Positions 38,706-55,780 of a stretch of 64,000 nt of DNA are shown piece after piece. Numbering within the stretch: the first letter of the stretch is position 1; each line of letters starts with the position of its first letter. The position numbers were made by a program, and so were the translations under genes. The stretch lies in the NCBI GenBank assembly GCA_945906815.1, contig CAMDRT010000002.1:62001-126000 (forward strand). Reading direction: 5' to 3'. This stretch comes from Bordetella parapertussis. Its GTDB lineage: Bacteria; Pseudomonadota; Gammaproteobacteria; Burkholderiales; SG8-41. The notes beneath the pieces are model-generated. The model was not told the origin of the DNA. It made no database searches and was given only the letters and a program-made list of their open reading frames with translations.

Positions 38706-39149
38706 TTGGAGCAGTTTTTCATAACGTTTTTCGCCTACTTGCAAAAAAGTCCGATGAATATGGTGTTGTTCGGCTTGGCGCTCACTTCCGGCGGCTTGCT
38801 GCTGTTTCCGATGCTGACGCGGGGCATGCGTCCCGGCGCCGAGGTCGGGCCGACGGAAGCGGTAACGCTGATTAACCGTAAAGATGCGACCGTAATTGAC
38901 GTTCGCGACGAAGGCGAATTCGCCGGCGGCCACATCAACAACGCGCGCCACATACCCGAAAAACAGCTCGCCGAGCGCATCAAAGAGCTGGATAAGTTTA
39001 AAACCAAACCGGTGATCGTCAGTTGCGCCAGTGGCCGGCGGGCGGCGGCTGTTAGCGACAGCTTGCGCAAGCAGGGCTTTACCGAAGTGGTGACGTTACG
39101 CGGGGGCATCGGCGCGTGGGTACAGGCCGGCATGCCGCTTGAAAAATAG
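38706..39149 (+). CDS. yibN: Membrane-anchored rhodanese (YibN-like)
   Basis: 147 residues from a TTG that follows AGGAG by 7 bases. One transmembrane segment (NMVLFGLALTSGGLLLFPML, about 18-37) is followed by a single rhodanese domain with VIDVRDEGEFAGGHINNARHIP and the active-site loop SCASGRRAA (Cys nucleophile). It faces the cytoplasm or periplasm depending on topology and may carry persulfide sulfur. The order yibN-grxC-secB-gpsA is the same as in E. coli. Its proximity to the putative selenoprotein glutaredoxin makes a link to sulfur or selenium handling tempting but unproven. Confidence 0.85.
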   Translation: MEQFFITFFAYLQKSPMNMVLFGLALTSGGLLLFPMLTRGMRPGAEVGPTEAVTLINRKDATVIDVRDEGEFAGGHINNARHIPEKQLAERIKELDKFKTKPVIVSCASGRRAAAVSDSLRKQGFTEVVTLRGGIGAWVQAGMPLEK

Positions 39150-39186
39150 TTTTTAACCAAAAATCTACTTACACATCAGGGATGTC

Positions 39187-39444
39187 ATGGCTAAAGTTTT
39201 GATGTATAGCACGGCAGTTTGACCGTACTGCGTATCCGCGGAGCGGCTACTGGCAAACAAAGGCGTGAAGGAAATCGAAAAAGTCTATATCGATCGTGAT
39301 CCCGCGCGCCGCACCGAAATGATGGAAAAAACCGGACGCCGCACGGTGCCGCAAATCTACATCGGCGACACCCATGTGGGCGGTTATGACGATCTGTCCG
39401 CGCTGGATCGCGCCGGCGGGCTTGACCCGCTGCTGGCGACATAA
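39187..39444 (+). CDS. grxC: Glutaredoxin 3 with in-frame TGA at the active site (putative selenoprotein)
   Basis: Reading through TGA at 39220-39222 gives 85 residues that align with GrxC over the whole length: MAKVLMYSTAV-U-PYCVSAERLL, then YIDRDPARRTEMMEKTGRR, TVPQIYIGDTHVGGYDDL (glutathione-binding TVP and GGYDD motifs) and GGLDPLL. The TGA is exactly the first Cys of the CPYC redox pair, so the site would be Sec12-Pro-Tyr-Cys15. No frameshift is needed, the second half keeps all family residues, and a hairpin with SECIS-like spacing follows. AGGGAT lies ahead of the ATG. The gene sits in the conserved yibN-grxC-secB-gpsA order. The alternative, a nonsense mutation or sequencing error, would have to hit this one codon by chance. 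No sel genes are in the window. Confidence 0.85.
39229..39255 (+). promoter_or_regulatory. Candidate bacterial SECIS hairpin
   Basis: The mRNA can pair TGC-GTA-CCGC (39229-39239, T39235 unpaired) with GCGG-TAC-GCA (39243-39255, C39247 and T39251-G39252 unpaired), leaving the apical loop GGA (39240-39242). The loop begins 17 bases after the TGA and has G in its first two positions, which meets published rules for bacterial SECIS elements. The hairpin lies inside the coding region just after the UGA, as SelB requires. Pairing was judged by eye. Confidence 0.6.
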
Positions 39445-39484: not shown

Positions 39485-39979
39485 ATGAGCGAACAAGCGC
39501 AGCAACCGCTGTCACCGCAGGACACCACGCAGCCGATTTTCAGCATCGAAAAGATCTATCTGAAGGACATGTCGCTGGAAGCGCCCGGCACGCCCAAGAT
39601 TTTTTTGCTCAACGAAACGCCACAGGTCGAGGTGAACATACACACCGCAGCCACTGTGGTCGAAGCCGGCGCCCTCTACGAAGTCGTGCTCACCGCGACT
39701 ATTACGGCGAAGCTGCCCGAGCGCACGGTGTTTCTGGTTGAGGTGGCACAGGCGGGGTTGTTTCATATCCGCAATCTGCCGCCGCAGGATCTGGATGCTG
39801 TGCTCGGCATACTGTGCCCCACCACGCTATTGCCGTACGCACGCGAAGCGGTGTCGAGCACCATCGCGCGCGCGGGGTTCCCGCCGGTGGTTCTGCATCA
39901 CATGGATTTCAACCAGGTCTACGCGCAAGCCGCGCAGCAGCAGGCGGGCCAGCAGCCCGCGCCGTCGCAGGTGAATTGA
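39485..39979 (+). CDS. secB: Protein-export chaperone SecB
   Basis: 164 residues from the ATG reading MSEQAQQPLSPQ. It has the SecB fold signatures FSIEKIYLKDMSLEAPGTPKIF, VVLTATITAKLPERTVFLVEVAQAGLF and LCPTTLLPYAREAVSSTIARAGFPPVVLHHMDFNQVYAQ. It holds preproteins unfolded and hands them to SecA. The gene follows the glutaredoxin by 40 bases; the longer frame upstream overlaps that gene and is not conserved. Confidence 0.94.
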   Translation: MSEQAQQPLSPQDTTQPIFSIEKIYLKDMSLEAPGTPKIFLLNETPQVEVNIHTAATVVEAGALYEVVLTATITAKLPERTVFLVEVAQAGLFHIRNLPPQDLDAVLGILCPTTLLPYAREAVSSTIARAGFPPVVLHHMDFNQVYAQAAQQQAGQQPAPSQVN

Positions 39980-55220: not shown

Positions 55221-55780
55221 CTCCGGGGCAAACCCAGCATACCCAGAAGGCCAACTGGCGGACGTGCACGCGGCTTAGTGTGTTCGCGCTGTTGATGTTC
55301 GGGTTCGGTTTTGCCATGGTGCCGTATTACAAAACGTTCTGTGAAATCACCGGCATCAACAACCTGCTGCAACCAAATGCCCCGGCGGGCAATACGCAGG
55401 TCGATAAAACGCGCTGGGTAACGCTGGAGTTCGACGCCAATATTCACGGCATGCCGTGGCAGTTCGTGCCGTTGCAGCGCAGCGTGCGCGTGCATCCGGG
55501 CGAGATGACACAGGTGTCGTTTGAGATCAAAAATATCGGCGGCAGCGCGTTGGCAGGGCAGGCGATACCAAGTTACGGGCCCAAGCATGGCGCGGAATTC
55601 GTGAAAAAGCTGGAATGTTTTTGTTTTAAGCAGCAGGTGCTGGCAGCGGGCGAAACGCGCCAGATGCCGGTGCAGTTTGTGATTGATCCCGCATTGCCGG
55701 CCGACATAACCACGTTAACCTTGTCTTATACTTTTTTCGAGGTTAAGGGCGCGAACATGGCTGCCGGCAAAGCAGGCTGA
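55217..55780 (+). CDS. ctaG: Cytochrome c oxidase assembly protein CtaG/Cox11
   Basis: 187 residues: one membrane helix (LSVFALLMFGFGFAMVPYYKTFCEITGI, with the conserved Cys), an Ig-like periplasmic copper domain and the CFCF motif in KKLECFCFKQQVL. It delivers copper to CuB of subunit I. The ATG overlaps the stop of the small upstream gene. Confidence 0.94.
   Translation: MTPGQTQHTQKANWRTCTRLSVFALLMFGFGFAMVPYYKTFCEITGINNLLQPNAPAGNTQVDKTRWVTLEFDANIHGMPWQFVPLQRSVRVHPGEMTQVSFEIKNIGGSALAGQAIPSYGPKHGAEFVKKLECFCFKQQVLAAGETRQMPVQFVIDPALPADITTLTLSYTFFEVKGANMAAGKAG

Follow-up and report, generated by a model that had tools for sequence, protein, structure and literature searches.

The window analysed here, a stretch of 64,000 nucleotides from a draft assembly of 4.77 Mb in 97 contigs (95% complete), carries a grxC-type glutaredoxin gene whose frame runs from an ATG at 39187-39189 to a TAA at 39442-39444, with a single in-frame TGA across its 85 codons (Table 1). 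With the TGA read as selenocysteine (Sec, U) the translation is MAKVLMYSTAV-U-PYC...TVPQIYI...GGYDDL...GGLDPLL. The original prediction placed the TGA at the nucleophilic Cys of the CPYC motif in an otherwise open frame, and direct reading bears this out, with U12 falling on the first Cys of glutaredoxin 3 (Grx3) of structure 1fov. It had also placed the gene between yibN and secB, which agrees with the rhodanese-domain protein and the SecB that the profiles recognise on either side. Among the eight named loci with the TGA, a motif scan found the secB motif downstream in all eight and the rhodanese motif upstream in seven, the eighth (L052) being without a match to the rhodanese pattern used.

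Table 1. Features of the glutaredoxin locus in window coordinates, followed by features elsewhere, which carry a genome (G), contig (C) or locus (L) prefix; G000 is the window's own genome.
Feature	Position	Strand	Details	Basis
grxC-type glutaredoxin gene	39187..39444	+	85 codons, TGA read as Sec, TAA stop	direct reading and profile matches
In-frame UGA, codon 12	39220..39222	+	nucleophilic Cys of C-P-Y-C, predicted Sec	
AGGGA	39178..39182	+	likely ribosome-binding site 5' of ATG	deduced from sequence
Rhodanese-domain protein	38706..39149	+	upstream neighbour	profile match
secB	39485..39979	+	downstream neighbour, stop codon TGA	profile match
Predicted bacterial SECIS	39229..39255	+	outer TGC/GCA pairs plus upper stem, -8.2 kcal/mol	
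Upper stem of predicted SECIS	39232..39250	+	GTATCCGC / GCGGCTAC, 7/8 pairs in the window, -6.0 kcal/mol alone	
Competing hairpin	39223..39246	+	loop UAUC, more stable in the window sequence, outside SECIS limits	
tRNA-Sec	G000:C12:1467-1557		75.8 bits, cut-off 47	
Thioredoxin-reductase-like gene	L126:1634-2542	-	between tRNA-Sec and selB	TIGR01292, 225.4 bits, under cut-off 343
TlpA-like thiol oxidoreductase	L220:1338-1940 (G000 C10)		TGA in WATWUDIC	Pfam match
Peroxiredoxin-like protein	L220:1955-2506 (G000 C10)		TGA in FTKTUTQE; in tandem with the TlpA-like gene	Pfam match
Peroxiredoxin-family gene	L219:1316-1774 (G000 C4)	-	TGA in FTGGUKNQ; likely peroxidatic position	Pfam match
Formate-dehydrogenase-like molybdoenzyme	L221:2017-5286 (G000 C18)		TGA in ARIUHAPT	Pfam match
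Additional AhpC-TSA matches	G309:C42:21002-21376; G308:C42:4410-4784; G300:C45:105036-105407		one TGA each	
Weak SelB-search matches	G345:C254; G363:C10; G330:C313; G346:C283; G349:C53; G347:C216; G046:C19		one in-frame TGA or TAA	

The protein read in this way reaches 111.6 bits against TIGR02181, the glutaredoxin 3 profile (cut-off 90), and 69.7 bits against the Pfam Glutaredoxin profile; with NF007923, a profile also named glutaredoxin 3, it gives 97.7 bits and stays under the cut-off of 129. Instead of the C-P-Y-C with a Cys nucleophile expected of GrxC it has U-P-Y-C, the Sec form of the family, and the other GrxC residues are intact as had been claimed, with the TVPQ motif present as TVPQIYI, the GG motif as GGYDDL, and GGLDPLL following. 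We take the TVPQ motif to be the cis-Pro loop and the GG motif to be the glutathione site. In the alignment the in-frame UGA matches the Cys of the homologues and the flanks are conserved on both sides. Among solved structures the best match by sequence is E. coli Grx3 (GrxC; 1fov, presumably the E. coli protein), at 85.8 bits over residues 3-83, which has the same TVPQ, GGYDDL and GGLDPLL blocks, aligns gap-free around the active site and sets the first Cys of its CPYC against U12, but has a Cys nucleophile and no Sec. Structures 4tr0 and 4tr1, which we take to be those of the Clostridium oremlandii glutaredoxin, give 58.9 and 54.3 bits and so rank behind E. coli Grx3; the hosts of Sec-glutaredoxins were otherwise compared by description. 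The UXX-star glutaredoxin-like selenoproteins (NF041212, NF041114 and NF047338) likewise carry, by their family names, Sec as the first active-site residue. However, the window protein reaches only 29.7, 22.7 and 26.6 bits against their cut-offs of 66, 72 and 97, under all three, and is therefore not a UXX-star member. No second close GrxC copy was found in the window's genome, where the single other match shares 30% identity.

Within the genus, 13 of 14 genomes carry the glutaredoxin with exactly one TGA, and the remaining one (G304) has Cys at this codon. The family set comprises 74 genomes, and the TGA occurs in one of the 60 outside the genus, namely G313 of another genus; the other 59 divide into 51 with a stop-free near-full-length copy, one with a fragment, four with distant matches only and three with none. 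An order-wide search of 300 genomes gave a match in 293, and among the matches listed the TGA appears only in the four that belong to the genus. The named TGA loci (L046-L053) overlap the numbered genomes, with identical sequences, and were left out of the genome count, while the locus table used for the codon-12 comparison (113 loci) includes duplicates. Removal of duplicates left 14 distinct TGA and 19 distinct Cys sequences for the analyses of hairpin energy, pairing and synonymous differences. Over codons 13-84 the 14 distinct TGA sequences (91 pairs) have a median dN/dS of 0.087, the largest ratio being 0.57, with a median dN of 0.054 and a median dS of 0.577, which indicates purifying selection downstream of the TGA. 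None of these 14 copies contains a further stop.

The genome also encodes components expected for Sec decoding, and tRNA-Sec, SelA and SelB lie together on contig C12. The tRNA-Sec model scores well over its cut-off, which 5 of 14 control genomes exceed as well, and ARAGORN reports a tRNA-SeC with anticodon tca. SelA reaches 578.5 bits with TIGR00474 (cut-off 267.9) and SelB 455.8 bits with TIGR00475 (cut-off 242.25), the latter cut-off also being exceeded in 2 of 14 control genomes. The thioredoxin-reductase-like gene between tRNA-Sec and selB is a possible redox partner tied to the use of Sec.

These data bear directly on whether the glutaredoxin gene is dead, that is, whether codon 12 has suffered a nonsense mutation and the frame is decaying. 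Standard gene calling would yield only an 11-codon stub, and UGA serves as an ordinary stop elsewhere in the genome, as in secB. Yet a decaying frame would hardly share its TGA among 14 distinct sequences under such a low median dN/dS, escape a second stop in every one of them, keep its neighbours, judging by motifs, at the eight named loci and sit in a genome with tRNA-Sec, SelB and SelA, so that we regard a dead gene as very improbable. The original prediction had likewise called this a genuine selenoprotein and not a dead gene, and both the codon carried by relatives and the intact state of their copies agree with that prediction. Its appeal to the rarity with which a random stop would strike this one codon was overstated and is insufficient by itself, although the conclusion drawn from it stands.

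Of the machinery that had been named as a check, only SelD is missing from the assembly: the best match in the window's genome is 69.7 bits, with nothing over the cut-off of 125. In all 13 other genomes of the genus SelD is over the cut-off, each time with one internal TGA, and in the three genomes of the genus that were read the context of this TGA is SHGGGUGCK. In G305 selD occupies L214:3942-5000. The alignment of contig C57 from the window's genome begins at L214:5004, 3 bases beyond selD; the first 105 bases of C57 do not align to L214, and the left side of the gap before C57 was not found in the assembly. A break between contigs where selD would be expected can account for its absence, and the gene most likely sits in the assembly gap before C57. 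A position beside a PhoH-like gene, as in G303, was also considered and rejected; the PhoH-like gene of the window's genome lies inside contig C1 with no selD match, and the gene order there therefore differs from that of G303.

The same machinery would equally serve a pathway that, under selenium scarcity, reads the UGA mainly as cysteine and produces a mixed Sec/Cys enzyme. Misuse of sulfur by Sec pathways is known from work on eukaryotes. That SelD itself contains a TGA in every one of the 13 other genus members points instead to a selenium-adapted lineage, and we give a predominantly Cys-containing product very little weight.

Four further genes of the window's genome contain an in-frame UGA (Table 1), and Pfam matches were obtained for them. 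In the two peroxiredoxins, the TlpA-like protein and the formate-dehydrogenase-like protein the UGA likely marks a catalytic position, a reading that draws in part on the TxxU and UxxC motifs listed in an excerpt of PMC13188914. Three AhpC-TSA matches each recur with a TGA in all 14 genomes of the genus, judged by score and position; the G131 copy of the first is a fragment, and letter-by-letter reading covered the window's genome and, for the tandem pair, G304. Hairpins whose loop begins with G lie 15 to 20 nt after the UGA in the formate-dehydrogenase-like gene, the first peroxiredoxin, the TlpA-like gene and the SelD genes of G305 and G306, whereas in the second peroxiredoxin and the G303 SelD the best hairpin has a loop that lacks a leading G. 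Counting the glutaredoxin, the four other UGA genes and SelD, six selenoproteins are predicted, which meets the threshold of six for a selenoprotein-rich organism given in an excerpt of PMC5029168. The window also carries the cytochrome oxidase genes COX2, COX1, Cox11 and COX3, and the organism can therefore probably respire oxygen.

Some observations on these gene families stand apart. Stop-free matches to the formate dehydrogenase alpha subunit are present in the window's genome on contigs C15 (over the cut-off) and C21 (under the cut-off), and three genomes of the genus have an additional AhpC-TSA match with one TGA that was not seen in the window's genome. The window was also scanned by codon usage for more read-through TGA frames, with thresholds that missed the glutaredoxin itself, and none of the 10 candidates was convincing by eye: the one at 55778 is the normal stop of cox11, and the rest resemble shadow frames of other genes. 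Given these thresholds, the scan does not prove that such frames are absent.

Reassignment of UGA to Trp or Gly in the lineage could in principle account for a TGA inside a conserved frame, but secB and cox11 of the window end in TGA (few genes were looked at), all five read-through TGAs read in the window's genome fall in Sec-like redox or formate-dehydrogenase motifs, and tRNA-Sec, SelA and SelB are all present, which leaves reassignment with a negligible chance. An assembly or sequencing error that turned TGC or TGT into TGA could occur in a draft of 97 contigs, yet it is extremely improbable given that 13 of the 14 genus members, as well as G313, share this TGA and that the named contigs carrying it belong to several different accession series.

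Decoding of the glutaredoxin UGA as Sec would call on a bacterial SECIS element, and a candidate hairpin lies just 3' of the codon. Its loop is the GGA at 39240-39242, 17 nt after the UGA, and its upper stem consists of 4 continuous pairs extended beyond one mismatch. The stem consensus is GTA[T/A]CCGC...GCGG[C/T]TAC, and the G313 version reads GTGGCCGC...GCGGCTGC. An excerpt of PMC13188914 gives as limits for bacterial SECIS elements a loop of 3-9 nt with G within its first two positions, an upper stem of 4-16 bp, an energy of at most -7.5 kcal/mol and a UGA-loop spacing of 16-37 nt. The window hairpin is within these published limits, the energy threshold being reached only with the outer pairs (-8.2 kcal/mol as against -6.0 for the upper stem). 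In all 14 distinct TGA sequences 7 or 8 of the 8 pairs of the GGA-loop stem are formed, compared with 3 to 5 pairs in 18 of the 19 distinct Cys sequences and 7 in the remaining one, from G304; G304 shows that a Cys copy, too, can carry the stem. Synonymous differences are also reduced over this region, with 0.148 of comparable pairs in the TGA group in codons 16-22 and 0.335 in codons 23-84, as against 0.372 and 0.411 in the Cys group (15 of the 19 sequences, of equal length). Within the TGA group, codons 18, 19, 20 and 23 are free of synonymous change, but so are codons 8 and 11, which precede the UGA. The stem uses codons that are rare in ten window genes (GTA, 11% of Val; CTA and TTA, 4% and 5% of Leu).

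Taken for the window sequence alone, the statistics are weak. Equal stability was found in 29% of 1000 synonymous recodings and equal pairing in 12% of 5000, so that neither the energy nor the pairing of the window hairpin is exceptional. Moreover, the minimum-energy fold of the 43 nt from the UGA is a competing hairpin with a UAUC loop (-12.4 kcal/mol, z -0.93, 30 of 200 shuffles as stable), and across the 14 TGA sequences this hairpin is the minimum-energy fold in nine and the GGA stem in five. The competing hairpin breaks the model for bacterial SECIS elements, with a spacing of 10 nt and a loop without G, and a ribosome positioned on the UGA would cover the start of its stem, freeing the GGA stem. 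In the competing hairpin 93.7% of cells are paired, 4 of the 7 distinct rows break one particular pair and no two-sided change is seen, compared with 96.4% of cells and one pair with a two-sided change in the GGA stem, a small difference. Covariation for the GGA stem is not significant (60 of 500 shuffles reach its score, with 7 distinct 33-nt rows from the 14 sequences) and cannot prove the stem because the TGA sequences are too similar. As neither the energy nor the covariation statistics are significant, the SECIS claim rests on conservation and the published limits, and the support for this putative element is comparative.

Taken together, these results argue that the gene encodes a predicted dithiol-type glutaredoxin 3 with a Sec nucleophile (U12-P-Y-C15), its UGA being decoded by SelA, SelB, SelD and tRNA-Sec together with the downstream hairpin, a reading drawn from sequence comparisons to which we assign a probability of about 95%. 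In the corresponding mechanism SelA and SelD, the latter presumed for the window's genome, would charge tRNA-Sec with selenocysteine, and SelB would bring the Sec-tRNA to the ribosome, held by the hairpin just 3' of the UGA, leading to insertion of Sec rather than termination. The enzyme would then carry out glutathione-driven reduction of disulfides and glutathione mixed disulfides, in which the selenolate would attack and Cys15 resolve. Its substrates may include the Sec-peroxiredoxins of the same genome, which are plausible partners.

Sec decoding is general in the family, in which SelB is over the cut-off in 66 of 74 genomes, and the Sec glutaredoxin is seen in one clade only, a distribution that fits a change from Cys to Sec in a lineage already able to decode Sec. 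The apparent switch concerns the only close GrxC of the window's genome. Trees were built from SelB (20 of the 66 genomes over the cut-off) and from glutaredoxin DNA (28 rows, codon 12 masked), with 200 bootstrap trees. In both, G304 forms a long branch and is unplaced; the trees as drawn have two state changes, and one change only is found in 20% (SelB) and 40% (glutaredoxin) of the bootstrap trees. These trees therefore do not show a gain of Sec followed by its loss. The Cys of the G304 glutaredoxin may be ancestral, or it may have reverted from Sec. This genome (L153, L216) has a Cys glutaredoxin (77% identical) with 7 of 8 stem pairs, together with SelB and with TGA in its SelD and peroxiredoxin-type matches. 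In a more tentative scenario, which we consider possible without favouring it, GrxC switched from Cys to Sec in one Sec-decoding betaproteobacterial clade and now acts as the glutathione-linked reductant of Sec-peroxiredoxins, so that a cell equipped with cytochrome c oxidase would reduce peroxide through an all-selenium relay; G304 would perhaps preserve the before- or after-image of the switch.

Selenoprotein glutaredoxins have been described before, as the original prediction had noted. An excerpt of the 2026 review PMC13188914 lists glutaredoxin with the motif UxxC as verified, and the listing in an excerpt of PMC9312934 is the same; the accessible part of PMC1794560 counts it among 25 bacterial selenoprotein families and names it in Geobacter sulfurreducens, Alkaliphilus and Moorella. 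Ten Sargasso Sea sequences with UXXC are given in an excerpt of PMC1088965, and the family is named again for marine data in part of PMC2398784. The glutaredoxins of C. oremlandii, Geobacter, Moorella, Alkaliphilus and the Sargasso Sea likewise have Sec for the first active-site Cys. However, the three genera of PMC1794560, as far as that excerpt goes, are anaerobic or facultative Deltaproteobacteria and Clostridia, whereas the window holds a GrxC-type protein in a betaproteobacterial rhodanese-grx-secB locus. For Betaproteobacteria the same part of this 2006 survey gives one family with 10 proteins and names FdhA as the only selenoprotein. PMC12013277 makes no mention of glutaredoxin or Betaproteobacteria, and among the matches listed by literature searches on Betaproteobacteria or Burkholderiales none described a Sec-glutaredoxin or a larger selenoproteome, which is no proof of absence in print. 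What is new, on the predicted reading, is therefore not the UxxC family, which was already known, but its lineage, the apparent Cys-to-Sec switch and a selenoprotein-rich, oxidase-bearing betaproteobacterium.

Gene callers that treat UGA as a stop will truncate or lose the glutaredoxin gene in genomes carrying the TGA. If Sec is confirmed, the selenoproteome of Betaproteobacteria extends past formate dehydrogenase, and the clade and its relatives offer one orthologue in both a Cys and a Sec form, with G304 as a possible intermediate, in which the benefit of selenium in glutaredoxin and the origin of a SECIS within coding sequence could be tested.

Two side observations may be added. In seven genomes of the family the SelB search also hit sequences, likely EF-Tu, at about 186 to 194 bits, each containing one in-frame TGA or TAA (Table 1); these matches perhaps overrun the end of the gene. 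Three MAG contigs titled Bordetella parapertussis (L048, L053 and L055) carry a glutaredoxin that groups with those of uncultured betaproteobacteria, and these are probably mislabelled records.
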